NCBI RefSeq assembly: GCF_019900845.1
Contig: NZ_CP074570.1
Coordinates: 1,054,001-1,118,000, forward strand
DNA: 64,000 nt
Direction of reading: 5' to 3'
DNA from: Paraneptunicella aestuarii
GTDB taxonomy: Bacteria > Pseudomonadota > Gammaproteobacteria > Enterobacterales > Alteromonadaceae
The notes beneath the pieces are model-generated. The model did not search any database. It was not told the origin of the DNA and saw nothing but the letters and a program-made list of their open reading frames with translations. Shown here piece after piece: positions 12,006-38,232 of the stretch; within the stretch, counting starts at the first letter, position 1; each line of letters starts with the position of its first letter. Both the position numbers and the translations under genes were made by a program.

Positions 12006-12028
12006 TTTAGTTTAATAAATAAGATACG

Positions 12029-12073: not shown

Positions 12074-12124
12074 CTTATTTTCATTTTCTGATTTTTACTC
12101 GACGAAAAGTATCAAGAGAAGTGT

Positions 12125-14789: not shown

Positions 14790-14854
14790 TTTTTCAGGTT
14801 TAGTTCGTATCAGTTATGTTTGCTTACTCAGGGACGAGTAACTTTCTAGAGTGA

Positions 14855-16759: not shown

Positions 16760-16761
16760 GC

Positions 16762-17670: not shown

Positions 17671-17748
17671 TTCAATACTTCCTGCCGCATCGGGTTTGCA
17701 GTATTGTTTTCTAAAACCCCCTGTTATTGCATTGGTAAAAACAGCCTA

Positions 17749-18699: not shown

Positions 18700-18874
18700 G
18701 CACCAAGTTATCATTAGGTTATTTTTACTATAGCCTTTATCCGAAATAATGGGTAAAAAAGAAACCAAATAGTCGTGTGTTATCAACATATGGCTAACAT
18801 GACCGCCCGGATAAATAAAAATCATAAATTGTGCCGGGTTAGGTTTCATTCATATGAGAACAGGAATCATCGCA

Positions 18875-22219: not shown

Positions 22220-22544
22220 ACTCAGAACCTCACTTAGCCCATCAAGCCCTATTAAGTTAGCGGTGAAATTTCCACTCGATAAATTTAATCCTAATAGAAA
22301 ATAGTGGAATCTCCAATATGTCTGATGTTGGGCTTGTCTTTTTCTCTGACTCCAACTTTGATAGCTTCCCTAAAAGCAAATACTACAGGTTTGCTAAAAG
22401 CAATCTTTGCAAGTATGCTAAAAGCAAGTTTTGCGGGTTGTTTAAGTACAAGTTATAGCGATGTCCCTGGAGCAGATTTTCAATCTGATTATTCACTTAA
22501 GTTTGGGGAACGCCGTGGCTTAGCACTTAAAGAGGTATTCATTG
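22220..22544. other. Intergenic region upstream of fic with 24-bp direct repeats
   Basis: TAAAAGCAA occurs at 22371, 22395 and 22419, a 24-bp spacing repeated three times, each copy followed by a divergent tail. The frame 22304-22564 (GTG start) crosses this region and reads the repeat as an eight-residue period beginning LKA. It overlaps the fic start and has no ribosome site, so I do not call it a gene. The repeats may bind the regulator of the downstream gene. Confidence 0.55.
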
Positions 22545-24086: not shown

Positions 24087-24137
24087 AGCCTGAGCCTCCA
24101 ATTTTCCTGTTAATTCAATTAGTATGTCGCCACGTTT

Positions 24138-24698
24138 ATGTATGAGTACAAGCGAGCAGTACCGGAAGTGAATAAGTCATCTTTTGTAGCAGTAGGGTTA
24201 GTGAACCCTAAAAGCCCAACTAATGTTGGAGCGGTGATGCGGGCTGCGGGGTGTTATCAGGTTGACGCGGTGTTTTACACTGGTGGGCGTTACGATAGGG
24301 CTGTGGCGTTTCAAACCGACACCAAAGATGTCACCAGCAAAATTCCGCTAACGGGCGTGGACTCGCTGCTGGCTCATGTGCCTGAAAATGCCAGCATCGT
24401 GTGTGTGGAACTGGTGGAAGGTGCTACACCGCTACCTGAGTTTCATCACCCGGATAATGCCTTTTATATTTTTGGCCCCGAAGACGGCACTATTGAACAA
24501 GAAGTGGTGGATGCTGCCGATGCCGTGGTGTACGTGCCGACTATTGGTTGCATGAATTTGGCGGCGACGGTGAATGTATTGCTATATGACAGGTTGGCTA
24601 AATCGGATTTGTCGTTCGCCAACGATGAGCTTATTCGACAAAGCAGAGATCGCAATAATAGAGTGCGCAATAATAAAATAAAGGTGGCCGCTGACTGA
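24138..24698 (+). CDS. TrmH/SpoU-family RNA 2'-O-methyltransferase
   Basis: The 186-residue protein has the SPOUT signatures: motif 1 LVNPKSPTNVGAVMRAAGC (about residues 18-36), motif 2 YIFGPEDGTIEQEVVDAAD and motif 3 VYVPTIGCMNLAATVNVLL, which form the knotted SAM-binding site. It methylates ribose 2'-OH in tRNA or rRNA. It has only the catalytic domain, without an N-terminal RNA-binding extension. The family position (TrmL, TrmH or another) cannot be set by eye. It lies 51 bp behind fic on the same strand and may be cotranscribed, though a functional link is not evident. Confidence 0.85.
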   Translation: MYEYKRAVPEVNKSSFVAVGLVNPKSPTNVGAVMRAAGCYQVDAVFYTGGRYDRAVAFQTDTKDVTSKIPLTGVDSLLAHVPENASIVCVELVEGATPLPEFHHPDNAFYIFGPEDGTIEQEVVDAADAVVYVPTIGCMNLAATVNVLLYDRLAKSDLSFANDELIRQSRDRNNRVRNNKIKVAAD

Positions 24699-24841
24699 TT
24701 TTCAGTTTTGTCTGTTTGTAATATTAGAGTGATGAAACTGATTTATAAAACAGGTGCTTAAGAATAAAAAGTGTGAAAATTTTTTGATCTATCAGCGAGC
24801 TTTGAATATATTCGTAGCTCTTTTTTCGCGGAGATAATCCT

Positions 24842-25081
24842 TTGACCACAAAACACCATCCAGCCAGATTGTATGTCAAGAAATTGAAAGACGTGTACGG
24901 CGGATATAAAGACTTCTACGTGCTTTTGTATGGTCATGATCCCGAGTCGCCCAATGAGCTGCAACGCTTCATCAATTATGTGAACCGCGGTAGTTATAAT
25001 CTGGAATTTCTAGAAATGCTGGTAACCAAAACTGATACCAAAGGCATTACGCTGGAAGAGTTTATATTGGGTAAAAAGTAG
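24842..25081 (+). CDS. Small hypothetical protein, TTG start
   Basis: A 79-residue protein beginning at TTG, with the ribosome site CGGAGAT placed eight bases upstream. It is soluble and charged, with KLKDVYGGYKDFYVLLYGHD followed by a helical region (LQRFINYVNRGSYNLEFLEM). I recognise no family. Its composition is normal for a small cytoplasmic protein, and the good ribosome site argues that it is real. It lies between the RNA methyltransferase gene and the small-peptide genes, all in the same direction. Confidence 0.6.
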   Translation: MTTKHHPARLYVKKLKDVYGGYKDFYVLLYGHDPESPNELQRFINYVNRGSYNLEFLEMLVTKTDTKGITLEEFILGKK

Positions 25082-25214
25082 CCTTTACATTTTATTTTCC
25101 TCATTTGACTTTCCTCATTTGCCCATAAAATCCCTTGAAATTTATTTCACTTGCCTTTTAATCATCTCGCGGATAATATTCTGACCTTGATGTTTTTGGT
25201 TCATCAATCACTTG
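25082..25214. other. Intergenic spacer with short repeats
   Basis: It contains the direct repeat TTTCCTCATTTG in two nearly adjacent copies around 25095-25120. The inverted repeat CATCAA/TTGATG, with a TCAC loop, spans 25202-25217, overlapping the start of the next small frame. It is probably the promoter region of the small-peptide operon. Confidence 0.35.
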
Positions 25215-25373
25215 ATGCTCAGCCTTCACGAAGCGGTAAGTCATTATCTGGATAAGAGCCATATAACGGCTGAACTAAAAGCCACAGGTATTCGTATTTT
25301 CATAGCCTATGGTTCAGGTTACTATATTTACCGCCTTGGAAACCTTGCAGATGAAGTAAGGTGGGCGATGTAG
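25215..25373 (+). CDS. 52-residue small protein upstream of the exported peptide
   Basis: This short frame starts MLSLHEAVSHYLDKSH and ends in EVRWAM. Its stop TAG lies inside the ribosome site (TAGGAG) of the next gene. The composition looks like a real protein: an amphipathic N-terminal helix, then a GIRIFIAYGSGYYIYRL beta-like segment. No ribosome site is visible in front of the ATG, and the palindrome CATCAA/TTGATG covers the start, which could regulate translation. I do not recognise a family. It could act as a leader peptide coupled to the exported peptide gene behind it. A TTG at 25212 is an alternative start. Confidence 0.5.
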   Translation: MLSLHEAVSHYLDKSHITAELKATGIRIFIAYGSGYYIYRLGNLADEVRWAM

Positions 25374-25381
25374 GAGTAATT

Positions 25382-25579
25382 ATGAACTTAAAAAAATACG
25401 TGTTAGCAATAGTGCTTGCCATGACATCGTTAGTCGTGGGAGCAACGGAAATGCAGGTCAGCAGTGAAGCAAATGCATCGGCATCGTGCTGGTGGATTTT
25501 TTGTGTGTCTTCGGCTTCTGGCACTGTAACAGTATCTGCGGGTGGTGCTGGTGATCCTCCGGGTCCTATACCTAATTAG
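25382..25579 (+). CDS. 65-residue exported peptide with Cys-bracketed CWWIFC motif
   Basis: The ATG at 25382 is preceded by a near-perfect ribosome site (AGGAG, five bases away). A signal peptide (MNLKKYVLAIVLAMTSLVVG, cut near GATEM) leaves a mature peptide of about 44 residues: a Ser/Ala-rich start, the hydrophobic CWWIFC hairpin-like motif, and a Gly/Pro-rich tail ending GDPPGPIPN. Two cysteines four residues apart could form a small disulfide loop exposing two tryptophans, as in some antimicrobial or signalling peptides. The gene is followed by a perfect 9-bp hairpin and then a membrane-protein gene, which fits a peptide with a dedicated membrane partner such as an immunity protein or receptor. 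That role is inference; no known family was recognised. Confidence 0.7.
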   Translation: MNLKKYVLAIVLAMTSLVVGATEMQVSSEANASASCWWIFCVSSASGTVTVSAGGAGDPPGPIPN

Positions 25580-25594
25580 CAGATTGAAAAGCTT

Positions 25595-25621
25595 TTCGGT
25601 GGATTAAGCTGCTCCACCGAA
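25595..25621 (+). terminator. Perfect 9-bp hairpin behind the peptide gene
   Basis: TTCGGTGGA at 25595-25603 pairs with TCCACCGAA at 25613-25621 around a 9-base loop. There is no strong T-run, so it may act as an attenuator or as an mRNA 3'-protecting hairpin. It would let the small peptide be made in excess over the downstream membrane protein. Confidence 0.5.
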
Positions 25622-25639
25622 TTCATAGAGAATAATGAA

Positions 25640-26443
25640 ATGTTTGATTACGCAGTTGGCTTTGTTATTGATAACGTTTGGGTTCTGGTTTATCTCATTG
25701 CTGGATTTTATGGTTTTTATACTAAGCGGTTATATCGTCCATTCCTCCATACTATATTTACCTTGGCTATCACTTTCGGCTTAAGTCGAATAATCTATTC
25801 TCAATTTTTGCTACCGTTGGATAACCTTTATCAATTCTATTATTTATATTGGGCAGCAGCGTGTGGTGCGATTGTTCTAATCTTAGCTATTGACCACCAT
25901 CTCTCTGGATTTGTTTATCACTGGCCATTAAAGCTCACTATGGGGTTGTTATTGATAGCTATGTCACTACACATTGCTGTTCATATTGATCGAAATATTG
26001 TGGCACTAAATGGAGCGTTAGAACCGAATCTTCATCTGAAGGATGCTTGGTGGTTATGGGCTGTTAGAAATATCTTCGTTAGTTTGGATAATGTACTAAT
26101 CCTGGCAAGCTTACTTTTCCCTTATAAAGCCTTTCGCAGCTCTGAAGACATCTACCGTATTCCGGTGTCCGTAATGCAAATGGACAAAGTGTGCGACCGT
26201 GTGGAGTCGCTGGAAAAAATGCTGATGACCATGCCCAATGGCTTAAACAAAGCTCATGCTTTTCAGTGCGTTAATAGCGCAAGAACCTTGTTGAACCTGT
26301 GGGGAAGTGGGGGCGAAGACCGTAGCCATATCTACAGCGCCAACCTGCTATGCGACCGCGCCAGAGACCTCGCCATCTACACAGAAAAAGCCCTGGAGAA
26401 AAGGCTAAAGGCCGAATCGGAAGGGCGCGTAAAGCTGGATTAG
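25640..26443 (+). CDS. Multispanning membrane protein with cytoplasmic tail, unknown function
   Basis: The 267-residue protein has about five or six hydrophobic segments in the first 170 residues (for example VWVLVYLIAGFYGFY, AACGAIVLILAI, LTMGLLLIAMSLHIAV). A soluble helical tail of about 95 residues follows, with VCDRVESLEKMLMTMPNG and a Lys/Glu-rich end. I do not recognise a family. It follows the exported-peptide gene by 60 bp on the same strand, separated by a perfect hairpin. A role as receptor, immunity protein or exporter helper for the peptide is possible but unproven. Base composition of the first two thirds is AT-richer than that of the tail, which may indicate a mosaic origin. Confidence 0.65.
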   Translation: MFDYAVGFVIDNVWVLVYLIAGFYGFYTKRLYRPFLHTIFTLAITFGLSRIIYSQFLLPLDNLYQFYYLYWAAACGAIVLILAIDHHLSGFVYHWPLKLTMGLLLIAMSLHIAVHIDRNIVALNGALEPNLHLKDAWWLWAVRNIFVSLDNVLILASLLFPYKAFRSSEDIYRIPVSVMQMDKVCDRVESLEKMLMTMPNGLNKAHAFQCVNSARTLLNLWGSGGEDRSHIYSANLLCDRARDLAIYTEKALEKRLKAESEGRVKLD

Positions 26444-26742
26444 ATATCTGTGTTAGAGTCGATCCCTGAACCGGATTTGACCCCTCCCAGCCTCCTATAC
26501 GGACACCTCACATTTGTCTATATAGGAAGGCCGGGATAGGGTTCTTTGCCTTCTCTGTCGGTGACTGATTATTGCAACTATTATTCAGGTTAGATAATTA
26601 GGTGGCAGCAAACATGGTGTTGAAACATCTCCCACACATTGTAAAACGTAAGAGAACCGGAAAAGAGCAGCAACACTTTTTCGGTCAGCTTATTGCTGTC
26701 ATATTTTGTCATGCATTTTGCCTGTGATATTTGCCTTGCACA
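26444..26742. other. Intergenic region with an imperfect palindrome
   Basis: There is no gene. TCCTATA at about 26492 and TATAGGA at about 26519 form an inverted repeat. Nearby, the motif CCGGATTTGACCCCTCCC resembles the ends seen next to REP-associated transposases in gammaproteobacteria, so this could be a remnant of such an element. That recognition is weak. Confidence 0.35.
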
Positions 26743-26976
26743 TTACTTGCGCTGCCGAGTTTTAAGGAACTTTCTAAAATCATTCAGCTCATTCAAGGTC
26801 ATACCGCAACCTTCCACCAAGGCAAAAAACTGGTTCACATTGGGCGTACCCACATTCTTTTCCCAGTTCTCGTAAGTTTTACGGGTTTTCACACCAGCAA
26901 TATTTGCCATCTGCTGAGTGGTTAACCCCGCAACCCTACGCATAGCGCGTAAATCACTACCACGAATCATCTCCAT
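26743..26976 (-). CDS. XRE-type helix-turn-helix regulator
   Basis: A 77-residue protein consisting essentially of one helix-turn-helix: LRAMRRVAGLTTQQMANIAG (helices 1-2), then VKTRKTYENWEKNVGTPNVN (recognition region), then helices 4-5. The build is that of small Cro/CI-like repressors or antitoxin-like regulators; the ENWE segment matches the family's usual NWE motif. GAGG lies five bases before the ATG. It is on the minus strand, downstream of another minus-strand unknown gene and opposite to the neighbouring operons. It may control that neighbour or the defence island to the right; the sequence does not decide this. Confidence 0.82.
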   Translation of the reverse strand: MEMIRGSDLRAMRRVAGLTTQQMANIAGVKTRKTYENWEKNVGTPNVNQFFALVEGCGMTLNELNDFRKFLKTRQRK

Positions 26977-27089
26977 ACATACCTCGTTTAGATTAATTTA
27001 ACACTCTGTATGGTAGATATAATAAATCTTTAAGGATTTTAATGTCAAATCCTAAATCATTTATTTTTTAACGCTCCAATGCATAGGGG

Positions 27090-27485
27090 CTAAATAGGTA
27101 TATTTAGTCGAGCCATTTCCTCAGAGACATCCCAATCCGCGTTACTTACTCTTTGCACAAACTGCGATATGGAATAGTTGCTAATGGTGGCAGCCTTTTC
27201 AGTATGCATGCTGTTTGCTTGAGGTATGCCGTGTTCAAAGGCTTCGAGTATTGTCCAAACATGGTCGTCTACGCTAGGAAACTGGAATTGCGAAGCAAGT
27301 AATTCTGACGGTGTAGGTAGGCCAACTTGATGCGCGATGATGCTGTCTCCGTCTTCAAGGTGCTGGGACAAAGTGGTGATTTCTTCAGTGGTTATCGCGC
27401 CGGATAATATGATGGTTAGATAGCTTTTGTAGTTACTGGCATCAACGTATTTAAGAGATAGTTCCGTGTTCATTTTTATCTTCAT
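27090..27485 (-). CDS. Hypothetical protein
   Basis: A 131-residue acidic soluble protein without a signal peptide. I do not recognise it. The first half looks alpha/beta (LSLKYVDASNYKSYLTIILSG), the second half helical (SISQFVQRVSNADWDVSEEM). An internal ATG four codons downstream (27473) is an alternative start; ribosome sites are poor for both. It lies 113 bp upstream of the XRE gene on the same strand and next to the POT-gene remnant that marks the edge of the defence island. Confidence 0.55.
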   Translation of the reverse strand: MKIKMNTELSLKYVDASNYKSYLTIILSGAITTEEITTLSQHLEDGDSIIAHQVGLPTPSELLASQFQFPSVDDHVWTILEAFEHGIPQANSMHTEKAATISNYSISQFVQRVSNADWDVSEEMARLNIPI

Positions 27486-27676
27486 TGGTAAATAAAGATA
27501 TTATATTGTCTTTCTGTGGGTTTGATAGTGTCATCTTAGATGCATTATTCATCTGGTTGCTGTTGCTCGATGACTTCTATGCCAAGGCTGTGTTTTAGTG
27601 TCTTTCAAATACTTTCGAAAAATTAAGGAGAGTAATTACAGATGAATAAGTTCAGATGGAGAAGCTGAGAATAAAA

Positions 27677-27705
27677 CCCCCACAGTCCATGTCGAGCTGT
27701 GGAGG
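27677..27705 (-). terminator. Degenerate copy of the POT-gene terminator hairpin
   Basis: CCCCCACAG at 27677-27685 and CTGTGGAGG at 27697-27705 form the same hairpin as at 33420-33450 (ATCCCCACAGC/GCTGTGGGGAT), with point changes. The shared flank continues into TTATTTAACGCC, the end of the POT reading frame. Confidence 0.8.
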
Positions 27706-27725
27706 TATGAATAGAAGCTGGTAGG

Positions 27726-27808
27726 TTATTTAACGCCAGTAATGATCAATGCAGAGCAAAGTAGAATACGTTTAGTGCTGTTATGTCTTGAATTTTAATG
27801 GTTTCTTT
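27726..27808 (-). pseudogene. Remnant of a POT peptide-transporter gene
   Basis: On the minus strand the segment reads ETIKIQDITALNVFYFAL, compared with ETIKIQDTAALNVFYFAL in the intact POT protein (gene at 33470-35083). It then frameshifts and jumps straight to the last codons GVK and stop (plus-strand TTATTTAACGCC). About 1.1 kb of the gene between these parts is missing, and nothing recognisable remains of the 5' part. The junction retains a CC shared by both sides. The remnant has the same orientation as the intact gene and the same terminator hairpin beyond it, so this is a deleted paralogue or a partial duplicate of the locus. The Vsr gene begins about 70 bp to the right. Confidence 0.85.
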
Positions 27809-27876
27809 CATTGTTGGAATAGGAGGATATACGCACTAGACTCAAGGTGAATTTATTCAAAATAGAGCTGATTCTC

Positions 27877-28317
27877 TTGGATATTGTTACCCCTAAAAAA
27901 CGAAGCCAGATGATGTCTGGTATCAAGAGTAAGAATACTCGTCCGGAAATATTGATTCGCAAGCAACTGCATAGGATGGGGTATAGATATAAGCTTCATG
28001 ACAAGTCTTTCCCCGGTAAACCTGATTTGGTCTTCCCAAAATATAGAGCTGTAGTTTTTGTTCATGGCTGCTTCTGGCATCAGCATCATTGCCATTTATT
28101 TAAATGGCCGAAAACCCGACCGGAATTTTGGCGTAAGAAGATCCAAGGTAATGTTATTTATGATGAAAAAGTGAAGGAGCAGCTACTAGGGATGGGATGG
28201 CGGGTTTGTGTGGTATGGGAATGCGCAGTAAAGGGAAAAAGCGAAGATAAAATTAAGGAAGTAGCAGAGGCTATCAGCTACTTCCTCAGGGAGGATAGGT
28301 TAATTATTGATATCTGA
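27877..28317 (+). CDS. vsr: Very short patch repair endonuclease (Vsr family)
   Basis: Vsr nicks DNA 5' of the T in T:G mismatches that arise when 5-methylcytosine deaminates. The sequence has the complete family pattern: RSQMMSGIKSKNTRPE, the catalytic Asp in FPGKPDLVFPKY and the zinc/active-site stretch VHGCFWHQHHC, with a further Cys in RVCVVWEC. The frame is open from a GTG at 27847, but starting at TTG 27877 (MDIVTPKKRSQMMSG) gives 146 residues, and numbering then agrees with E. coli Vsr to one residue (Asp50, His63, Cys65, His68). No strong ribosome site marks either start. A cytosine-C5 methyltransferase lies in the same island, the expected partner. Here it may serve as a repair enzyme or as the nuclease of a restriction-like system. 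Confidence 0.93.
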   Translation: MDIVTPKKRSQMMSGIKSKNTRPEILIRKQLHRMGYRYKLHDKSFPGKPDLVFPKYRAVVFVHGCFWHQHHCHLFKWPKTRPEFWRKKIQGNVIYDEKVKEQLLGMGWRVCVVWECAVKGKSEDKIKEVAEAISYFLREDRLIIDI

Positions 28318-28399
28318 AAGGAGTTTTATAAAACCATTTTAATATTGGCTTCTTATTTGTATTATTTGCAGTGAAATTACGCAATAAACAGTGAAACCT

Positions 28400-30271
28400 A
28401 TGAAATGGAAAAATATCCCTCTTCGTGCAGAAGAAGTTGAGACTGAAATTACTCAGAGAGACCATTTTAATAATGATGATGTTGATCTTTCCGACACAAT
28501 AGTTCGAGAAGCTATCCAGAACAGTCTGGATGCTGCCAATGAGCCTGTTGTTGAAGTTCATTTTCGCTTTATTGATAAAAGCAAGGGACTAGATGTTTCT
28601 TATTTGCAGGATTTATTAGATGGTCAATTAGAGCATGCTCGAGCAGCTAATTTGGATATAGATACGATAGATTTTGAGTCTCCGGACGCCTTGATTATAG
28701 AGGACTTTGGTACTTCAGGTTTAACTGGGGCAACAAATAAAAGGGAAGAAAGTCATTTTTCTGATTTTTGGCGAAGTCATGGGAAATCTCATAAGCATGG
28801 GGCTAAAAGAGGAAGGTGGGGACTAGGTAAGCTTGTATATTCGACTTCAAGTAGAGTTGGAGCTTTTTGGGGAGTAACAAAAAGAGGAGAGGATAATGAT
28901 TTTTACTTGATGGGGCAATCGGTACTTAATACTAGGCATTTAGAGGGTAAATACTATAAGCCTCATAGTTATTTTGCGGATTATGAAAATGAGAATGATG
29001 AAAATTTAAGAATCTCTGTGCCAATAAAAGATGAAAAAATTAAAAATAAATTTTGTCAAGTATTCTCTATCGACAGAAGTAAAAATCCTGGGTTATCTAT
29101 AGTCATTCCTTTTCCTGATAAAGACTTCAAAAAGAATCGAATGATCGATGTGGTAATTTCTAATTACTTTTATCCAATTATTTCTGGAAAGCTGCGAGTT
29201 AATCTGGATGGCGTGATAATTTCCAGTGACAGTATTCGATATTTGGCAAGCAAATATTCAGTCGATTTCTTTAAGCAAATAGATCTATTGTTTGACTTCA
29301 TTGAAACAGCTTCAAATGTGAAAGATGAGGATTTGGTCTTACTTGATTTTGATGAATTCGATGATGGAATCTTGAAAAAGGAGAATTTTGATGAAGATGA
29401 ACTAGAGAACCTGAGAACAAAGTATAGAAATGGGGAGACTGTTGGTATTAGAGTCAACGCCTCTTTTAGAAAAAAAACTGGTGATAAAAAAAGTTCATTT
29501 ATTAAACTTTTGATTTCTAAACCAGACAGTATTGAGAGGGGGATAGACCTTTACGTTAGAGGGGGATTAACGTTACCTCAGGAAGAGAAGTTCAAAAGTA
29601 GGAAAGCTCTAGGGGTTATGATAGCTGAGGATGAACCCATTTGTGAGTTGTTAGGAGATGCTGAGAACGCTGCACATACTAGGTGGACTCAAAAAACAGA
29701 AAAGCTATCAAAAAACTACAAGGCTCCAAATCGGATAGTGAGATTAGCTCAACTTTCATTAACTTGGCTACATGATATATTGGCTGAAGTAATCAACGAA
29801 AGGGATGAAAATGCTTTACTTGATTTTTTCTATTTCAGAACTCAAAAGCCAGTAAAGAGTAAAAAGAAAAAAAACAAGTCGCCTATGCAAGTAAATGTTC
29901 CTGATATACCCAAGAGAGAGAAGAAAATACATATTGATAAGTATCAAGATGGTTTTTCCATTAAGAATGGGGCTGGGTTTGATGAAAGCTTTCTTCCTTA
30001 TTTTCAAAGAATAAGAGTGGCCTATGATACCTCCAAGGGGGACGCATTTAAGAAGTATGAGGAGAGCAAAATTAAAGATTTCTCTGTTGGAGCTGGTGGT
30101 GATATTGAAGTATTAGAGCAGGAAAATATCGAGATTGTAAAAGCAGAAGAAAACCTATGGGAGCTCATGATTAATGAGTTACCTTTTAGGTTCTCAGTTA
30201 CTGGATTTGACAGCAATAGAGATCTAAAGATTAGTTTGCCGGATGGGAAGAAAAATGCTGAGAACGATTAA
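28400..30271 (+). CDS. GHKL ATPase (MutL/Hsp90/MORC-like) of a methylation-linked island
   Basis: The ATP-binding fold of the GHKL class is complete: N-box REAIQNSLDAA (about residues 36-46, counting from the ATG), G1 box IIEDFGTSGL with the adenine-binding Asp near 102, and glycine-rich lid GRWGLGKLVYSTSS near 138-151. These ATPases close as dimers on ATP and act as clamps or switches. A middle domain and a Lys-rich stretch (KSKKKKNKSP) follow, then a C-terminal region with no recognised nuclease motif. MutL/MORC-type ATPases in restriction-modification neighbourhoods have been described before, together with Dcm and Vsr genes. The gene overlaps the next one by 17 bp. Start is uncertain: ATG 28400 or GTG 28391; neither has a good ribosome site. 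AT content is clearly higher than in the gab genes. Confidence 0.85.
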   Translation: MKWKNIPLRAEEVETEITQRDHFNNDDVDLSDTIVREAIQNSLDAANEPVVEVHFRFIDKSKGLDVSYLQDLLDGQLEHARAANLDIDTIDFESPDALIIEDFGTSGLTGATNKREESHFSDFWRSHGKSHKHGAKRGRWGLGKLVYSTSSRVGAFWGVTKRGEDNDFYLMGQSVLNTRHLEGKYYKPHSYFADYENENDENLRISVPIKDEKIKNKFCQVFSIDRSKNPGLSIVIPFPDKDFKKNRMIDVVISNYFYPIISGKLRVNLDGVIISSDSIRYLASKYSVDFFKQIDLLFDFIETASNVKDEDLVLLDFDEFDDGILKKENFDEDELENLRTKYRNGETVGIRVNASFRKKTGDKKSSFIKLLISKPDSIERGIDLYVRGGLTLPQEEKFKSRKALGVMIAEDEPICELLGDAENAAHTRWTQKTEKLSKNYKAPNRIVRLAQLSLTWLHDILAEVINERDENALLDFFYFRTQKPVKSKKKKNKSPMQVNVPDIPKREKKIHIDKYQDGFSIKNGAGFDESFLPYFQRIRVAYDTSKGDAFKKYEESKIKDFSVGAGGDIEVLEQENIEIVKAEENLWELMINELPFRFSVTGFDSNRDLKISLPDGKKNAEND

Positions 30272-30995
30272 TTATACTGGTAGAAAGAAGATAACTCAGC
30301 AAGAGATTTCTATAACAATGGATGAAGTGGGAGGAAAAAAAACTTTTGATATTGAGTTTAGAATCCTGGAAGGTTCTTTTCCCGACCATGCATCCTTGTA
30401 TGTTGAAGCTTATTTTAAAGAAACTAGACAAAGGTTTAGTTTTGGTACTATTGGAAAAATCTGTCCTCCTGAGAGCAGAATTATAGACAAGGTTGATTTT
30501 TCAGGAGAAACCTTATTTAAGGTTCTGGTTGTAGATGAATCCAATAGTACAGGTGTTTTATTGGGTGTAGGAAAAGAGCTCAGGGCTGGAAATATTGATT
30601 ATGTAGATCGAGAAAGTTTAATTTCTGTTGAATCTAGAGATTTGGGGAATGAGCTGTGGAACCTCCAGTTTGATGAATCAAGAAGACCAGTTATTTATCT
30701 TAATAGGTCTATTCCCAATGTTATTGGAAGGTTAAGTGAAGACATTACATTTCAGGCACTAGTGCTTCCTGAGGCATTTAGACGAGTTTTGATGTATTGC
30801 GTGTCAGAGTCAGACGACTTTGACGACGATTCGTTAGAACGATGGAAGGAGTTTGCAAAAAGGCATTCAGATCGATTTCCGAATGAAGATGAATCTGACG
30901 AAGAAAAGTCTGAGTGGATTGAGGAGGTTGTATCATCCTTTTGTAATTCGTTTAGATTTTGTGAGCGGTTTATTTCAGAGAATTATGAAAAATGA
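30255..30995 (+). CDS. Unrecognised protein of the ATPase/methyltransferase island (first)
   Basis: A protein of about 246 residues, soluble, with no signal peptide. I do not recognise the family. It seems to have a beta-rich first half (FDIEFRILEGSFPDHASLYV, SGETLFKVLVVDE) and a helical C-terminus rich in Asp/Glu and Ser (DDFDDDSLERWKEFAKRH, NEDESDEEKSEW). A central block, RRPVIYLNRSIPNVIGRL, looks conserved in character. No PD-(D/E)XK or HNH motif is visible. The ATG at 30255 has GGAAG four bases before it; the frame is open from 30243. It overlaps the ATPase gene by 17 bp, and its stop overlaps the next start as ATGA, so all three are translationally coupled. Confidence 0.72.
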   Translation: MLRTINYTGRKKITQQEISITMDEVGGKKTFDIEFRILEGSFPDHASLYVEAYFKETRQRFSFGTIGKICPPESRIIDKVDFSGETLFKVLVVDESNSTGVLLGVGKELRAGNIDYVDRESLISVESRDLGNELWNLQFDESRRPVIYLNRSIPNVIGRLSEDITFQALVLPEAFRRVLMYCVSESDDFDDDSLERWKEFAKRHSDRFPNEDESDEEKSEWIEEVVSSFCNSFRFCERFISENYEK

Positions 30996-31696
30996 CTCTA
31001 ATTAGAAGATTAAATAATATCGGGCTGGAAAAGTTTACAGATTACATTCAGAAATTGAAAGCTGGTGTTGATATACAGTATCCCGAGTATTTGCTGGATT
31101 CTATTGAATTTAGTGAAGATTGTGAAATTGATGTTGAAGTTGAGCAAGTGCAATTTAAATCAAGATATGAGCTAGGAAAATATTTGGTTGGCAAATTTGC
31201 TGATATAGATATGCAACCGTATTTGGGAGATAGAGGAGTGTGGAGTTGGTTGGCTCTTTTTTGGTTTAAACAGCTTTGCCCCGTAGTGTCAGGAAAGTTT
31301 AAACCGAGTGAAGCACACCATTATGTATTGAGCCAATTGTACAACCATCGCCCAAGACATTCAGTTTTATATTCTTGGCAATTGGTAGAGTTACATGGTG
31401 AAGATTCGTTGTTTATGTTAGCTAAAAAGCCCTCTGTTAGAGGAGAGCTTAGTGAGCAGTTATTGGCTCGACAATATATTCTCTATTCTAAAGGAGTTAT
31501 CGCTCTTGCTAATCACTTGTATTTTGATGCTAATACTGAATCTTTTAAAAGGGGGGCAGCTGGACGCGGAAAGGGGGGAGTAACTAGGTTAATTTCCTGG
31601 ATTCGGCAAATAGACCTTACTTATGATATTTTTAGTATGGAAAAAGAAGACTTTGTTAAGATTCTGCCATCAGAATTCGGTAGATTTTTATCATAG
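30992..31696 (+). CDS. Unrecognised protein of the ATPase/methyltransferase island (second)
   Basis: A 234-residue soluble protein that I cannot place. The start overlaps the previous stop as ATGA. Visible features are an aromatic core (GVWSWLALFWFKQLCPVVSG), then HHYVLSQLYNHRPRHSVLYS with several His/Arg residues, and a Gly/Arg/Lys loop (RGAAGRGKGGVTRL) followed by a helical C-terminus ending LPSEFGRF. The basic loop could contact nucleic acid. No established nuclease signature was found. Its 3' end overlaps the 3' end of the convergent methyltransferase gene by six bases, with no terminator between them. This compact convergent arrangement suggests that the island is inherited as one unit. 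Confidence 0.72.
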   Translation: MTLIRRLNNIGLEKFTDYIQKLKAGVDIQYPEYLLDSIEFSEDCEIDVEVEQVQFKSRYELGKYLVGKFADIDMQPYLGDRGVWSWLALFWFKQLCPVVSGKFKPSEAHHYVLSQLYNHRPRHSVLYSWQLVELHGEDSLFMLAKKPSVRGELSEQLLARQYILYSKGVIALANHLYFDANTESFKRGAAGRGKGGVTRLISWIRQIDLTYDIFSMEKEDFVKILPSEFGRFLS

Positions 31697-33253
31697 TTTA
31701 AGCAAATCAAATACGAGCTCAGCCAATTTAAATGCTAAAAATGGTGGAACGGCATTTCCAACTTGAACGTATTGTTGCGTTCTATTTCCAACAAAAAAGT
31801 AGTTGTCTGGAAAAGTTTGTATCCTTGCTGCTTCTCTAACAGTTAGGCTTCGGCACTGCATTGGATCATAGTGAATAAAATAGTGACCATCCTTACTGAT
31901 ATGGCTTGTAACGGTTGTTCCGTGTGAGTTTGCTCGTTGTACTCTAAATCTGTCTGCAAATTTCCCCGAATCAAAGTTTTTGTGAGCAGGCCAAAGTGCT
32001 TTGGGTAAGTTATATGATTTCGGTGAAACACCATTTACTTCGGTATAGATGCTGTAGAAAAGATATCGGTGCAGATCTGTCGTGATGTGGCCTCTTGCCT
32101 CGTGGTTCACAACGTAAGAACCCAATTGTTCATCTATTAACCAACTTTTCAATTCTGAGTTGATATCTTTAAAAGCCTTTGTTTTCTGTTGGTTGAGATT
32201 TTTACCAGTGCTTTCTGGTGAGTCAGAGATTACAGATATATGTTTCAAAAAGCTGTTATAAACGGCTTGGTTTATGTCTTTATTGTTTTTTATTTCGGTG
32301 AGTAGTCTTTTATCGTAGTTCTTAATAGCATTGCGCCATTTTTCCAAAGAATCGCCACCTTTGGATAACTTACTTCTTAGAGGGGGTAAGTCAGCAATAA
32401 CGTCTTTTACTGTTGGTGGTTTTTCTACTGGTTCCAGTAAGTGCCTTTGTGTTTTGCTATCTATATCTTCTCTTACACCTAGTAGAATGACTCTATGGCG
32501 AGCTTGGGGAATACCATACTCTTCAGCCTTAATGATGAAGTCTTTCGGGGTGAGTTCTTCCTTGTCTGAGACAAAAGAGTATATGTTGTATTTGTGTTTC
32601 TCTTTAATGAACTTTGGTTTGGTGTCTGTGGCTTTACAGGGATCTTGTAAATCGTTCAGTATTTTTCCAAAGATGAGCTCACCATCTACTTTGGCAGACA
32701 ACATTCCTTTGACGTTCTCCATAACGAATACAAGGGGGTGATACCGGGCAATAATTTTCAAATATTCTTTATAGAGAAAATTTCTGTGGTCTTGTGTCGC
32801 ATCGTAATTTTTAGATCCAATATTACGAGCTCTACCAACCAGAGAGTATGCCTGGCAGGGTGGTCCTCCAATAAGGATGCAGTTTTCTTTACCTATTGCT
32901 TCGTCGATGCATTTAAAGGCACGGGTTTCTGTTTCTTCACCCAAAGTAATACACTGGGCTTCCCGGCGAGCTTCTTCTAATTCATTTTGAAACTTCGGCA
33001 ACTTAAATAATTCTTGCTCGGGGCTATCTCCTAACTCTCCTTTTAGGAAATCGTAGTATTCAGGAGGAAAAGATGAACCATCAAATTGCCTTAGAAAGGA
33101 TCTTAAAGTGAGCGTTCTATGTGCGCTTTCTTCTTTTTCTATAGATACGGCAATTTTAAATACATTCTGATTATTTTCTTTTAGTTGAGAAAAGCCTTCA
33201 CCCAAGCCGCCCGGCCCTGCAAATAAATCAATGATTTTTATTGGCTTTCTCAT
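31691..33253 (-). CDS. DNA (cytosine-5-)-methyltransferase
   Basis: The 520-residue enzyme has the ordered C5-methyltransferase motifs: I, DLFAGPGGLGEGF (residues 9-21, SAM); IV, GGPPCQAYSLVGRAR with catalytic Cys133; VI, MENVKG with Glu179; VIII, QARHRVILLGVR; and IX/X near the C-terminus, RSLTVREAARIQTFPDNY and YVQVGNAVPPFLA. The large insert between motifs VIII and IX (about residues 290-460) is the target-recognition region and is longer than in Dcm. An insert of about 70 residues between motifs I and IV is also unusual. It transfers methyl groups to cytosine at an unknown site. It is convergent with the Vsr/ATPase operon and belongs to the same island; its methylation would create the T:G mismatches that Vsr repairs and could mark self DNA. 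Confidence 0.93.
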   Translation of the reverse strand: MRKPIKIIDLFAGPGGLGEGFSQLKENNQNVFKIAVSIEKEESAHRTLTLRSFLRQFDGSSFPPEYYDFLKGELGDSPEQELFKLPKFQNELEEARREAQCITLGEETETRAFKCIDEAIGKENCILIGGPPCQAYSLVGRARNIGSKNYDATQDHRNFLYKEYLKIIARYHPLVFVMENVKGMLSAKVDGELIFGKILNDLQDPCKATDTKPKFIKEKHKYNIYSFVSDKEELTPKDFIIKAEEYGIPQARHRVILLGVREDIDSKTQRHLLEPVEKPPTVKDVIADLPPLRSKLSKGGDSLEKWRNAIKNYDKRLLTEIKNNKDINQAVYNSFLKHISVISDSPESTGKNLNQQKTKAFKDINSELKSWLIDEQLGSYVVNHEARGHITTDLHRYLFYSIYTEVNGVSPKSYNLPKALWPAHKNFDSGKFADRFRVQRANSHGTTVTSHISKDGHYFIHYDPMQCRSLTVREAARIQTFPDNYFFVGNRTQQYVQVGNAVPPFLAFKLAELVFDLLKL

Positions 33254-33419
33254 TAGAAGGAAAATAATGTGAGTGTTTACAAAAGTGGCGCAAGTTTACA
33301 TTAAATGTATTTGTTTTTTTAGTTTTTAAAAGAGGGATTGTTTAAGTAGCGTTATTGGGGTTTATTCGATGAATAAATTTTATGCAAGTCTTTGGTAATT
33401 GATTGGCTTAATAAGAAGA
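33254..33419. other. Right border of the island
   Basis: This AT-rich non-coding stretch contains the promoter side of the methyltransferase gene (minus strand). It ends at the terminator hairpin of the POT gene, whose degenerate copy lies at 27677-27705. Confidence 0.5.
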
Positions 33420-33450
33420 ATCCCCACAGCCCATGCTGAGCTGTGGGGAT
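33420..33450 (-). terminator. Terminator hairpin of the POT transporter gene
   Basis: ATCCCCACAGC (33420-33430) pairs perfectly with GCTGTGGGGAT (33440-33450). On the minus strand it lies 20 bp behind the stop codon and is followed by TCTTCTTATT. This strong 11-bp GC-rich stem makes a factor-independent terminator likely. Confidence 0.75.
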
Positions 33451-33469
33451 ATCTATAACGTTTGGTGAG

Positions 33470-35083
33470 TTATTTAACGCCGTGCATTCCGCGTTTCAGG
33501 ATGGGCGAGATAAGGATCATGAATACCCCTACACCAATACCAACCCACATCAGGAATTGGAACAATTCTGTGTAGGTTGCTGCAACTGCGTGGATGTCGT
33601 TTAGGTCGGTGTGCTCAGTGTCTACTGCTGCCATTTTACCTAAGCGCATTGCTACGGTTTCTGCCAATGCTGTTGCCAGGAACCAGGTTCCCATTGCCAT
33701 ACCTACAACACGATGAATGGCTAGCTTGGTTACTGCCGACAATCCAACCGGTGACAAGCAGAGTTCGCCAGTGGTGTGCAGCAGGTAGGCTAGTGCCATC
33801 CAAATCATGCTGATGTGTCCGGTTTCATCCGGGTATTGAGCGCCAATTACCAATGCACCGAAGCCTAAACCTGCTTGCATAATGCCTAAGCCAAACTTGA
33901 CCGGGGTGCTGGGGTTTAGATTTCTCTTATCTAGCCAAACCCATAAGGCTGCGAATGGTAGTGACAATAACATAATGTATAAGGCGTTTAAGCTACCAAA
34001 TTGTGATGCGGTGATTTCGAAGTCGCCTATTTGGCGGTCGATGACGCGGTCGGTGAACAGGGTCATTGAACCAGCGGCTTGTTCGAACAAGGCCCAGAAG
34101 ATAATCGTGGATGCGATAAGTACCATTAGCACTATCATTTTATGCACATCTTCTTTTTTGCCTTTCAGCACTGAATAAGCAACAAGACCTACCCCCGCAA
34201 GCACTAATAACGTTTGTTGAGTCATGAATACTACGGGTTCATGTTGTACCATCAACCAAGAAATGCCCAAACTGGCAAAGGCTGCCAGGTAGATGACATG
34301 TTCTTTCTTAATACCCATGAACTTCTCTTTTAGAATTTCCGGGTTTTCTGGCTCTGCTAATCCGTATAGGTATTTTTGACCATAAGAAAATGTGATCAAA
34401 CCAATTAACATGCCGATACCTGCCGCGCCGAAGCCATAGCCCCAGCCATAGACTTCACCAAGGTAGCCACAGATCATGGTTGCCAGGAATGAACCTACGT
34501 TGATACCCATGTAGAAAATGGTGAAGCCTGAGTCACGACGAGGGTCGCCTTCTGCGTAAAGCTGACCAACGATGGTGGAGATATTAGGTTTCAGGAATCC
34601 AACACCGGTAACGATTAATGCCAGAGCAAAGTAGAATACGTTGAGTGCTGCGGTGTCCTGGATTTTGATGGTTTCTTGAAGGGTAGTACCTGCGGCTAAC
34701 ACGGTTCCGTCGGAAAGGGTTAACGCGGATTGCAGTATGGTTCCTGCGTCGTATTGCACAGCTTGATGGCCCTCGACTGCCATCAATAAGTGCCCCAGGC
34801 AGAGTAAAATACCGCCAAATAAAACGGCTTTTCTCATGCCGAGATATCGGTCGGCTAATACGCCCCCGATTACTGGAAGCGCGTATACCAATCCTGCATA
34901 GGCTCCCAATACTTCCAACCCTTCACCGTCGCTGAACAGGTGGTATTTTGTAAGATATAAAAGGAGTAGGTATTTCATCCCGTAGAAGGAGAAACGTTCC
35001 CACAATTCTGTCGCGAAACATACGTAAAGTCCCTTTGGATGACCAAATAAATTGTCGGAACTTTCAATGGCAATGGCAGTCAT
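33470..35083 (-). CDS. POT-family proton-dependent di/tripeptide transporter
   Basis: The 537-residue inner-membrane protein belongs to the proton-coupled oligopeptide transporters. The family proton motif ExxERFxFYG is present in TELWERFSFYGMKYLLLLYL (about residues 25-44). Further features are DRYLGMRKAVLFGG and FTIFYMGINVGSFLATMICG, and about 14 membrane helices, the count expected for bacterial POTs. It imports small peptides with protons. It is monocistronic with its own terminator hairpin. A decayed piece of a near-identical gene with the same terminator lies 5.7 kb to the left on the other side of the defence island. Confidence 0.92.
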   Translation of the reverse strand: MTAIAIESSDNLFGHPKGLYVCFATELWERFSFYGMKYLLLLYLTKYHLFSDGEGLEVLGAYAGLVYALPVIGGVLADRYLGMRKAVLFGGILLCLGHLLMAVEGHQAVQYDAGTILQSALTLSDGTVLAAGTTLQETIKIQDTAALNVFYFALALIVTGVGFLKPNISTIVGQLYAEGDPRRDSGFTIFYMGINVGSFLATMICGYLGEVYGWGYGFGAAGIGMLIGLITFSYGQKYLYGLAEPENPEILKEKFMGIKKEHVIYLAAFASLGISWLMVQHEPVVFMTQQTLLVLAGVGLVAYSVLKGKKEDVHKMIVLMVLIASTIIFWALFEQAAGSMTLFTDRVIDRQIGDFEITASQFGSLNALYIMLLSLPFAALWVWLDKRNLNPSTPVKFGLGIMQAGLGFGALVIGAQYPDETGHISMIWMALAYLLHTTGELCLSPVGLSAVTKLAIHRVVGMAMGTWFLATALAETVAMRLGKMAAVDTEHTDLNDIHAVAATYTELFQFLMWVGIGVGVFMILISPILKRGMHGVK

Positions 35084-35509
35084 AAATCAGCCTCAAAATT
35101 CGGTTTTATAAGTTTTATTATCGAAACGAAAGCACGGTTATACCGGGCGAGGTGGGCAAAAGCAAGCTTGAGAAAGAAAGCAAGCCTTTGTTATGTGTAT
35201 TAAATTGTTTGTGAATTTGGCTGTGGTTAGGGATTTTGTTTGAGGGAATGAGCTCTTGTTTTTTCTGATTCTTTAATTAAGGCTTGGTTAATTCAATGTT
35301 GGCAACATTGCCGATCATACAAATAATAACACTCTTATACTGTTCAAGCTGTTGGCAAATCGTGTAAAATCGGCGCCCTTTGTATATTGCTTGGATTCCA
35401 GCGTGCGCTCCGTATGTAAATACGGTATGTAAAGTGGGCGATTAGCAGCGCACAGTAAAAAACAATATTCAGCGACTTAGTAATAAAAATAAGCAGGTTT
35501 AAGCAGGAA
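35084..35509. promoter_or_regulatory. Divergent promoter region of POT and capsule genes
   Basis: This is a 426-bp gap without a gene. It holds the short palindrome CCGTA/TACGG near 35410-35425 and several AT-rich stretches suited to promoters for both directions. I did not find a JUMPstart/ops element of the enterobacterial type. The long untranslated region before the capsule export gene may carry regulation. Confidence 0.4.
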
Positions 35510-38194
35510 ATGAAAAACAGATTTGGATATATTTTATGCCTCTTTCTAGTTTTCTCACCGTTAGCATTTGCACAACAAGCATTCCAGCCGACGAAAGAAC
35601 AATTAGAAATATTTAAAAAGCTTTCACCTGAACAACAAGAAGCGCTGGCAAAAAAGTATGGCATGGATTTGAATATGCTAGGGATGGGAGATGGAACTTC
35701 TACCAACTCGTCTAAAGAATTAAGTAGCCCGTATATGCTGCCCCGTGCCGATGGCATGAATAAGGAGCAAGACAAACAAGCTCAAGAATATTACGAGCAG
35801 ACTGATGAAGAAGAGGATGAATTAAAACCCTTTGGTTATGATTTATTTGCTGGCCAGCCTACGACTTTCTCTCCTCTTGCCAAAGCCCCGGTTCCTTCCA
35901 ATCATTTAATGGGGCTTGGCGATAAGCTGCTGATTAGCCTATACGGTAAAGTTAACGAGCAATACGATCTGGAAGTTAATCGTCAGGGGCAAGTTGTTGT
36001 TCCCGGGTTGCCCCCGATGAATGTGGCTGGATTAACTTATTCGGAAGCAAAAGATTTTATTAAACAGCGCGTTGAAGAGCAGAATATTGGGGTTTCGGCT
36101 CATGTTGCCTTCGGTGAGTTGGGATCTATTCAAGTTTTCGTACTGGGTGATGCTTATACTCCGGGTACATACACTGTCAGCTCCTTGTCGACTATTACCC
36201 ACGCCTTGTTTGCCAGTGGTGGCATCAAAGAAATCGGCTCTTTGCGTAATATCCAGTTAAAACGCGCGGGTAAAGTGGTGGTTAATCTGGATTTGTATGA
36301 TTTGCTGTTGCGCGGTGATACCAAAGATGATGTCCTTTTACGTTCTGGTGATGTGGTATTCATTCCTTCTGTAGGTAAGCAAATAACGGTTGATGGAGCG
36401 GTAAATCGCCCTGCGATTTACGAAGTGAAACCGGGTGAAACCTTCAAGGATTTGCTCGCTATGGTCGGTGGGCCTGCCAATGAAGCTTATCTTCGTAAAG
36501 TGAGCGTGTATCAATATAAAAATGGCACCAAGCATATTCAAAATGTGGATCTGAATAAGTCTGCACAGTTGCAAAAAACCGTTGAAAATGTTGCACAGGT
36601 CATTGTTCCTAATGCGGGTGAGCGTTTACAGGACGCTATTCAATTATTAGGTGAAGTGACTCGTCCTGGATTTTATGAGTGGTATGAAGGCATTTCACTG
36701 TTGTCATTAATTGATTCTGAAACCGGGTTCTTTACTGAGCATTCAGATATTAATTATGGCCTGTTGTTACGTCGTAATAATGGTGAGATTCAGGCTATAC
36801 AGTTTAGCCCTGCAAAGTTGTTGACAGATAAAAGCTACGATAAGCCGCTTATGCCTGAAGATAAGTTGTTTATTTTCTCAACCAATACCAAGTCCAAACA
36901 ACTGTTGAGCTTCGAAGAATTAACCGGGGAAGAGTCGAAGCAAGATTTGATTAAGGAACGTGTTGAGAAGCAAATCGAAGAGCAATTTTTCTGGGATTTA
37001 TATGCTAATTTGGATGAAGAAGATGATGCCAATATCAAGCAGAAGAAAGAGGAGGTAACCACCGATTTACCTACTTTGTTTGAATTGGAGAATGAAAGCT
37101 TTTCTGAGTTAGTTGAGAAATACAAAATTTATCGCTGGGATACCAGTTCTCGCCATTATTTGCTATGGCCTGCATACAAAATGGTATTGGATGCCAATCG
37201 TATTGGTAGTGTTCTACCTTTAATTGAAGTTAGTGGAAATGTGCGTTACCCCGGTGCTTATCCTTTAAGTGAAGGTGGCTCTTTGGAAGATGCGCTTGAT
37301 GCGGCTGGTGGGGTGACTGATTTGGCATCGCCCATGATCAAGGTCTCTCGTGAAACGCCTTCGGGTGTTGAGCAGTTTGATGTCAATATTAAGGTTGCTA
37401 AAGACTTTCTTATTTCAGGTAAAGACAAGATTTCTGTCTTTACCAAGCCAGAAGCTAATGATTTTGCTCAGGTACAAATTCGCGGAGAAGTGAAGTTCCC
37501 GGGAACCTATACGGTGAAGCGTGGCGAGTTGCTTTCCAGTTTGATCGCCAAAGCGGGGGGCCTAACTAAGTACGCTCATGCCGATGGTGCAGTGTTTACC
37601 CGTGAGTCCTTGAAGTCGAAAGAGAAGGAAAACTTGTTAGCTTTGGCTGATGAATTACGTAAGCAAGTTGCAGCCAAGCGATTAACGAATAATGTTACTG
37701 ATAGCAGTAATGTTAACTACAACGAACTGCAAAAGGTGCTTGCGGATCTGACCAACACTGAAGCTGTAGGTCGTATGGTTATTGATTTACCTTCTTTGCT
37801 TGAAGGAAATCTGGATTCAGATGTTGAGTTGATTCGGGGCGATATTTTAGTTGTTCCTCCCAGATCGCAAACCGTTTCTGTGGTCGGTGAAGTGTACTTG
37901 CCTACCTCTCACCGTTACCGTACAGGGTTATCGATTGATGACTATCTGGATAGCAGCGGTGGCGTGAAAAAACTGGGTGATGAAGACAATGTTTTTGTTA
38001 TCCAGGCAAATGGTTCGGTTATTCGTCCTGATAAAGGCTTTTGGTATTCGTCGGCTTCTTCTTCATTGAAGCCGGGGGATACTATTGTTGTGCCGCTGGA
38101 TGCAAACCCCATTGATAATTTGACATTGTGGTCTTCAGTAACGCAAATTCTGTATCAATCTGGTGTTGCGATTGCTGCGATTGGTTCTTTGTAA
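35510..38194 (+). CDS. Polysaccharide export outer-membrane protein with several SLBB domains
   Basis: The 894-residue protein starts with a signal peptide (FGYILCLFLVFSPLAFAQQ) and a helical stretch, then a polysaccharide-export domain (about residues 130-210, GLGDKLLISLYGKVNEQYD). Several SLBB beta-grasp repeats follow (near 210-290, 295-370, 390-470, 615-690, 705-790 and 845 onward). An acidic coiled segment (about 485-545) splits the repeats. Wza-type proteins with this extended layout (about 900 residues, as in Vibrio OtnA/WbfF) form the outer-membrane channel for capsule or O-antigen capsule. There is no lipobox. It opens the polysaccharide cluster, followed 38 bp later by wecB. The hydrophobic C-terminal end (TLWSSVTQILYQSGVAIAAI) is typical. 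Confidence 0.9.
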   Translation: MKNRFGYILCLFLVFSPLAFAQQAFQPTKEQLEIFKKLSPEQQEALAKKYGMDLNMLGMGDGTSTNSSKELSSPYMLPRADGMNKEQDKQAQEYYEQTDEEEDELKPFGYDLFAGQPTTFSPLAKAPVPSNHLMGLGDKLLISLYGKVNEQYDLEVNRQGQVVVPGLPPMNVAGLTYSEAKDFIKQRVEEQNIGVSAHVAFGELGSIQVFVLGDAYTPGTYTVSSLSTITHALFASGGIKEIGSLRNIQLKRAGKVVVNLDLYDLLLRGDTKDDVLLRSGDVVFIPSVGKQITVDGAVNRPAIYEVKPGETFKDLLAMVGGPANEAYLRKVSVYQYKNGTKHIQNVDLNKSAQLQKTVENVAQVIVPNAGERLQDAIQLLGEVTRPGFYEWYEGISLLSLIDSETGFFTEHSDINYGLLLRRNNGEIQAIQFSPAKLLTDKSYDKPLMPEDKLFIFSTNTKSKQLLSFEELTGEESKQDLIKERVEKQIEEQFFWDLYANLDEEDDANIKQKKEEVTTDLPTLFELENESFSELVEKYKIYRWDTSSRHYLLWPAYKMVLDANRIGSVLPLIEVSGNVRYPGAYPLSEGGSLEDALDAAGGVTDLASPMIKVSRETPSGVEQFDVNIKVAKDFLISGKDKISVFTKPEANDFAQVQIRGEVKFPGTYTVKRGELLSSLIAKAGGLTKYAHADGAVFTRESLKSKEKENLLALADELRKQVAAKRLTNNVTDSSNVNYNELQKVLADLTNTEAVGRMVIDLPSLLEGNLDSDVELIRGDILVVPPRSQTVSVVGEVYLPTSHRYRTGLSIDDYLDSSGGVKKLGDEDNVFVIQANGSVIRPDKGFWYSSASSSLKPGDTIVVPLDANPIDNLTLWSSVTQILYQSGVAIAAIGSL

Positions 38195-38232
38195 GGCTAT
38201 GTCGGTTTAATTTCGTTTAGAGTGGATTGTAA

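Follow-up and report, generated by a model that had tools for sequence, protein, structure and literature searches.

A three-gene ATPase cassette beside an exchangeable C5-methyltransferase in a genomic island of Paraneptunicella aestuarii

Five tightly packed genes in the island

We analyzed a stretch of 64,000 nucleotides (nt) from contig NZ_CP074570.1 of Paraneptunicella aestuarii (called the window below), in which an island at positions 27877 to 33253 encodes a Vsr nuclease, a GHKL ATPase (A), two proteins without a family (X and Y), and a C5-cytosine DNA methyltransferase (M). The genes and the left border are as follows (aa, amino acids):

27877..28317, + strand: Vsr, very-short-patch mismatch endonuclease, 146 aa; TTG start, with a GTG at 27847 possible (Pfam Vsr 1.1e-32; NCBIfam vsr 4.3e-43)
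28391..30271, + strand: A, GHKL ATPase, 626 aa, paraMORC-like with GHKL motifs, remote relative of PDC-M33A (PADLOC, 5.6e-27); GTG start
30255..30995, + strand: X, 246 aa, no family (Pfam, PADLOC, and NCBIfam blank at E ≤ 1); recurs after A in relatives
30992..31696, + strand: Y, 234 aa, no family of its own, weak link to DUF6339; mostly helical (AlphaFold2 pLDDT 96.3, pTM 0.91; best Foldseek match in the PDB E = 1.0)
31691..33253, − strand: M, C5-cytosine DNA methyltransferase, 520 aa, convergent with Y (Pfam DNA_methylase 3.8e-46)
27675..27807, no strand: left border, decayed transporter-like pieces; direct repeats D1 (76%) and D2 (88%) versus 33419-33481 and 34622-34677 right of the island

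All five genes were intact and tightly packed among the open reading frames (ORFs) of the window; the overlaps are 17 nt for A-X, 4 nt for X-Y, and 6 nt for Y-M, the last between the 3′ ends of the two genes. A sequence-only reading of the locus had described the same set, namely a Vsr, a complete GHKL ATPase, two overlapping genes without a family, and a convergent C5-methyltransferase with no space at the 3′ ends, and this observation was confirmed. M carried PCQ, ENV, QxRxR, and GNxV, which we take to be the named motifs of its family, and the Vsr carried the motifs that presumably matter for such enzymes. The best PADLOC models for M were methyltransferases labelled DISARM and type II. That reading had also seen no classical restriction nuclease, and indeed no restriction endonuclease was recognized among the five island proteins with Pfam, PADLOC, NCBIfam, and PHROGs, scans that would miss an enzyme without a model.

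The three GHKL motifs checked in A were intact (EAIQN at 40, DFGTSGL at 105, and GRWGLGK at 141). Pfam matched nothing in A, a PDB sequence search with the A profile gave no match, and the one model matched across the four libraries at E ≤ 1 was the PADLOC candidate PDC-M33A, with residues 35-506 as the best stretch. In an 80-row alignment, E40, Q43, N44, D105, G110, G141, G144, G146, R390, E425, and H429 were invariant among the rows having a residue there, and E425-x3-H429 is an ExxxH motif as given for paraMORC2. In six loci (L033, L041, L048, L057, L084, and L091), a related gene of 97-156 aa lay directly upstream of A and may encode a regulator; it had no clear Pfam match (checked in L057 only), and its cluster contained no ORF of the window.

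Neither X nor Y could be placed in a family with Pfam, NCBIfam, or PADLOC at E values up to 1; PHROG matches appeared only at E 0.27 and 0.075, and searches of PDB sequences with their profiles gave best E values of 0.23 for X and 0.17 for Y. Nine residues of X (T12, R14, G68, W139, P149, P176, W201, W225, and F233, numbered from the upstream ATG at 30243, so that 4 is subtracted for the 246-aa form) were conserved in at least 89% of rows, and with few conserved polar residues the protein appears to show no sign of an active site. In Y, W84 was present in 48/48 window-type rows, and R122, H123, R199, Q206, D212, P226, E228, and F229 in 45 to 47 of the 48. The AlphaFold2 model of Y used 54 sequences, and a Foldseek search of the PDB gave no solved relative, returning 14 matches at E ≤ 10 with TM-scores ≤ 0.17. 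The sequence-only reading had suggested predicting structures in search of a hidden nuclease fold; no known nuclease fold was thus seen in Y, though a Foldseek search by itself leaves room for one. A relationship of X or Y to MzaC, MzaD, MzaE, Vsr, or EcoRII-C was likewise unsupported, because all ten hhalign comparisons gave E ≥ 0.028, but these negatives are weak ones, as the same run scored A versus MzaB at just E 0.0026 with 11.5% probability.

A-X-Y is a unit and its methyltransferase is exchanged

The genome collection was scanned once with a three-row alignment of the ATPase, which returned 213 candidate stretches, 90 encoding a relative and 80 of them kept. The X and Y profiles started from five loci, with L004-L007 among the seeds, and later profiles were built without L005 and L007, the sequence link to PDC-M33 then being weak. 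This neighborhood survey of the ATPase, which the sequence-only reading had suggested, showed that a complete A-X-Y recurs in 70 loci including the window, on one strand in 70/70 and adjacent in the order A-X-Y in 64/70, with median gaps of −4 and −4 nt, across 13 named bacterial phyla and one archaeon. The count omits L005, L007, and L006 (dropped as the same locus as L052) and includes both near copies L066 and L067. L067 was also kept in the partner counts and was left out of the ATPase tree, the co-divergence test, and the density count; L005 and L007 were left out of the co-divergence, density, and partner counts, and L004 and the window out of the methyltransferase density count. Loci with over-long, short, or split ORFs were dropped for the ATPase tree and for co-divergence, which reduced the latter from 70 to 52 loci.

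Among 398 genomes drawn from the phylum, 7 contained Y and 11 contained A, and A was present in 7/7 genomes with Y (two of these seven Y were weak DUF6339-like matches, and one accompanying A was broken). Together with the recurrence in 70 loci, this means that X and Y are bound to A. Pairwise distances in the 52 loci were correlated with rho of 0.84 for A-X, 0.65 for A-Y, and 0.62 for X-Y, and 0/500 permutations were as high. For A and M in the 13 loci with the window's M type, rho was 0.03, and 412/1000 permutations were as high, while the same 13 loci gave 0.72 for A-X and 0.56 for A-Y. A, X, and Y therefore co-diverge but M does not follow A, which indicates that the trio is inherited as a unit and that M is exchanged. 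A-X-Y is a real unit, with a patchy spread: a relative of A was found in 3/295 genomes of the window's order, window included.

Partners were counted over all ORFs within 6 kb of the trio; a window-type M was a phmmer match above 300 bits, and a locus was classed as having none only if its contig ran on for at least 3 kb on the left and at least 2.5 kb on the right. By this analysis, 15 of the 70 loci had a window-type M (window included), 16 had only a distant C5-methyltransferase, 21 had none, and 18 could not be judged; a neighbor in one M-less locus also matches methyltransferase models, so the class without M is not quite clean. The sequence-only reading would have given up its novelty claim if homologs of X and Y occurred mostly apart from the ATPase and the methyltransferase; the survey found them bound to A, with no methyltransferase detected at 21/52 judgeable loci. 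The matches that were found lay close to the trio: at 67 loci, methyltransferase ORF hits numbered 28 in 335 kb within 3 kb but just 1 in the 517 kb lying 3-10 kb away, which means a 43-fold higher density within 3 kb. The ATPase tree, built by a quick method from 69 rows and with several long branches, placed the window together with L065, L009, and L008 (support 99), and the partners of these three were a window-type M and Vsr in L065, a distant M, Vsr, and EcoRII-C in L009, and a distant M and Vsr in L008.

Vsr was present in 15/15 loci with a window-type M, 11/16 with a distant M, 1/21 without a detected M, and 0/18 of the unjudgeable ones, and the sole M-less locus with Vsr, L011, has a 328-aa gene clustering with methyltransferases. 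L006, an Aeromonas relative, has a 149-aa Vsr. Vsr thus follows M and is probably the repair companion of M, not the effector. An EcoRII-C-type gene (a cluster of nine proteins, with Pfam checked and agreeing in 3 of the 9) was found in 8/16 loci with a distant M and in 0/15 with the window-type M, and the latter 15 also had no Mza parts beside A-X-Y. Among 82 neighboring ORFs of 14 window-type-M relatives (2 of 84, halves of split ATPases, were removed before the scan), 20 PADLOC models matched and REase_II was not one of them, a scan that included some short contigs and would miss a model-less enzyme; Pfam gave no restriction nuclease among the 25 listed of 51 matched families. Around the M-less trios, 115 neighbors (after removal of 3 of 118 large ORFs) matched 205 PADLOC models, and the 25 listed include models for Cas1, Cas4, Gabija, and viperin, which places some trios in defense islands.

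The window's M type was found as 21 copies in 20 of the 398 genomes, window included, and A-X-Y accompanied 3 of the 21. The 20 other places had MzaB and MzaC in ten (nine also with MzaD and MzaE), MzaC, MzaD, and A in two, A-X-Y in two, and something else in six. Of these six, L135 had an MzaE-like gene, weak matches to MzaB (28-30 bits) were seen in L134 and L136, and the remaining three showed neither. In L131, the one locus scanned with PADLOC, Mza was confirmed, with MzaB at 2.1e-80, MzaC at 1.6e-118, MzaD at 1.1e-16, and MzaE at 1.3e-72. Vsr lay near M in 13/18 fetched places without A-X-Y and in 8/10 Mza places. In a phylogeny of 35 methyltransferases of this type, accounting for the distribution of the trio takes 9 label changes, at least 8 of them forced by supported branches, and the sister of the window's M (100/97) is the M of L132, which lies beside MzaB-E in a genome of the window's own family. 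Neighborhoods and tree together showed that M, in most cases with Vsr, is exchanged as a module, which other genomes combine with an Mza cassette.

Some other combinations were also seen. L140 and L146 are hybrid loci in which MzaC and MzaD occur with an ATPase like PDC-M33A, a window-type M, Vsr, and two further unknown genes (297/302 and 258/274 aa); these two had no PADLOC match and did not clearly match the X and Y profiles either. In L137 (2104-7236), a window-type M and Vsr lie beside a gene for a 1710-aa protein with no known cassette, possibly another effector type. In L082, the ATPase occurs twice within about 10 kb, together with PDC-M33B-like genes (9899-12641, + strand; 16584-19363, − strand), and an MzaE-like gene lies between the two copies at 13435-15486.

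Comparison with catalogued systems

The nearest catalogued set is PDC-M33, a phage defense candidate of PADLOC-DB 2.0.0 in which an ATPase is followed by two genes of about 280 and 250 aa (A-B-C), and the island's A matches its PDC-M33A model. Unlike PDC-M33, however, the island's X had no match to the PDC-M33B model at E ≤ 1 and Y none to the PDC-M33C model. The window-type X profile found no PDC-M33B-type protein better than E 51, and the sole link of X was an hhalign comparison with the B type at E 0.0059, of low probability. PDC-M33C-type proteins are DUF6339 proteins. With the window-type Y profile, from which L005, L007, and the DUF6339 types had been left out, the C-type proteins of L087, L078, L084, and L080 came at ranks 79-82 with E 0.032 to 1.0, and the first 14 non-members above them, when inspected, were window-type Y proteins. 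Y versus the C type gave E 0.0025 by hhalign, also of low probability and collinear with the X-B link, and the DUF6339 type is without most residues conserved in the C-terminal block of window-type Y. The profile-profile check that the sequence-only reading had called for thus returned weak collinear links to the B and C types only, and from these scores the PADLOC B and C models would not be expected to find window-type X and Y. The novelty proposed there is reduced by the match of A to PDC-M33A, which means that the set is partly catalogued, and it survives for X and Y, which no catalogue model matched. A-X-Y may therefore best be described as a conserved, uncatalogued branch beside PDC-M33 that shares a methyltransferase type with Mza. 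Literature searches returned no paper on PDC-M33 or DUF6339, and none was recognized as describing the A-X-Y gene set, judged by titles, abstract starts, and passages. A locus on an Enterococcus plasmid, L005 (4470-9233), combines an AIPR gene with an ATPase and two small genes. The first of the small genes has a match to PDC-M33B (2.3e-11), and the locus is a distant A-B-C set with an AIPR partner of its own.

Mza likewise combines a GHKL ATPase cassette with this methyltransferase type, in most cases also with Vsr, but the four Mza profiles had no match in window positions 22001-39000 at E ≤ 1e-5, and A had no MzaB match at E ≤ 1. The island also resembles EcoRII-type restriction-modification with Vsr, as relatives of the trio adjoin a C5-methyltransferase, a Vsr, and an EcoRII-C gene, whereas the island itself is without an EcoRII-C gene and its methyltransferase type differs. 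It departs from type II restriction-modification in having no recognizable restriction endonuclease beside its methyltransferase, and it shares with Vsr short-patch repair a Vsr family protein linked to a C5-methyltransferase. ParaMORC2, a GHKL family of restriction neighborhoods with Dcm and Vsr, has a conserved ExxxH motif (Iyer et al. 2008, PMC2292703), and A has this motif as well as the GHKL motifs, but the main text of that paper names no partners to which X and Y could be matched. The nearest tested analogue we saw is VcSduA (GHKL-Shedu, formerly paraMORC3), for which the passages of PMC12137116 consulted describe a GHKL ATPase with a nuclease that restricts phage directly and loss of protection in both ATPase and nuclease mutants. 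According to the same passages, VcSduA has a PD-(D/E)XK nuclease fused to its ATPase, whereas none was recognized in the island's ATPase.

A possible defense mechanism and its alternatives

We propose, at a probability of about 0.48, that A-X-Y is an ATP-gated three-subunit defense complex, with M marking self DNA, Vsr repairing, and the M module exchangeable. Vsr repairs the T:G mismatches left by deaminated 5-methylcytosine, and here it would serve as the repair helper of M, which would mark self DNA at the window locus. The GHKL ATPase dimer (A) might close on DNA in an ATP-dependent manner, an idea that rests on the GHKL family and on the looping model of PMC2292703. X would probably be an adaptor. 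Y, predicted to be helical and without a solved relative, would probably be the DNA-contacting, perhaps effector, subunit; one Trp in it is invariant, and an Arg-His pair, an Arg, a Gln, an Asp, and a Glu are nearly so. The complex might cut DNA, nick it, or simply act as a block.

Several observations weigh against this proposal. The 21 M-less loci mean that self-marking is either no general need of the trio or is supplied elsewhere. The EcoRII-C-type genes in 8/16 distant-M loci (two of them near copies) leave the trio as not the sole possible nuclease there, and no nuclease was recognized in A, X, or Y by library scans or, for Y only, structural comparison. L132 had no Vsr in the fetched stretch, and the trio label clusters weakly at most on the M tree (38/500 shuffles were as low), which fits frequent exchange. 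The trio was rare in plasmid records (3/72,556) and phage records (1/50,697) and was not found in viral contigs, and many of the trio loci lie on contigs assembled from metagenomes, which makes the species assigned to them uncertain. Self-recognition is the weakest part of the proposal, because a trio that stays constant while M changes cannot easily read the motif of M. The exchange of M and the M-less loci suggest that the trio senses something else (DNA ends, modified bases, or phage proteins) or follows M physically.

A classical matched restriction-modification system, in which A-X-Y is sequence-specific and cuts the unmethylated sites of its cognate M, is rather unlikely. It would agree with the strong enrichment of M beside the trio, the tight packing of Y and M, and the missing REase_II model near window-type M in the 14 relatives, but it would require M and A to diverge together, which they did not in the 13 loci, and it has to explain the trio loci without a detected M and the four-row ATPase clade in which the window and L065 have the window-type M while L008 and L009 have a distant one. 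The trio and M could also be independent neighbors, a free-standing defense cassette and an orphan M-Vsr modification and repair pair that share a defense island. This is unlikely as well: the trio without detected M in 21/52 loci, M without the trio in 18/20 fetched places (13 of these with Vsr), and the absent A-M co-divergence all suit it, but the 43-fold density within 3 kb is sharper than a diffuse defense island would give, and M is swapped between the trio and Mza, another GHKL-ATPase cassette. A bolder version, which we regard as doubtful, makes A-X-Y an uncatalogued ATP-driven restriction machine with Y as a new-fold effector, which would take self and non-self from whichever C5-methyltransferase is present, reading no fixed motif, and would be interchangeable with Mza on one and the same methyltransferase. 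A non-defense role, as a mismatch or recombination accessory working with 5-methylcytosine marks, is very unlikely, because the patchy spread, high divergence, and exchange with Mza cassettes suit defense better, although GHKL ATPases and Vsr include repair proteins (PMC2292703). The sequence-only reading had named Vsr itself, or one of the unknown proteins, as a possible effector switched on by the ATPase. For Vsr, such activation would resemble the help it gets from MutL; Vsr is the sole recognized nuclease of the island, and PMC2292703 cites an interaction of MutL with Vsr in E. coli. Vsr as the effector is nevertheless scarcely credible, as it was in 15/15 and 11/16 trio loci with M versus 1/21 (L011) without a detected M and in 13/18 fetched window-type-M copies without A-X-Y.

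If the ATP-gated complex is true, methylation-marked defense would be modular, with one self-marking module (M, usually with Vsr) serving different effector cassettes, and a single cassette could use different methyltransferases, which raises the question of how an effector follows the specificity of a swapped methyltransferase. Y would offer a new-fold protein as a nuclease or DNA sensor, and there would be a testable reason for the clustering of MutL-like ATPases with Dcm and Vsr.

Borders of the island

The G+C content of the island was 34-39%, compared with mostly 43-50% in the left flank and 42-47% in the transporter gene at the right; values of mostly 37-45% in the right half of the window make the contrast weaker on that side. 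The second border repeat match was also found by a separate comparison, at 84%. Right of the island lies an intact transporter gene (33470-35083, POT type recognized by eye), and from the decayed pieces of such a gene and its 3′ end at the left edge it is as if the island had replaced most of a second transporter copy. The genus has one other genome, L102, in which the transporter and the genes to its right are conserved, but the 19 kb fetched around them showed no sign of the island or of the window's left flank. Two ORFs on the − strand lie left of the island, one of 131 aa (27090-27485) with no kind assigned and one of 77 aa (26743-26976) with the look of an XRE-type helix-turn-helix protein by eye.

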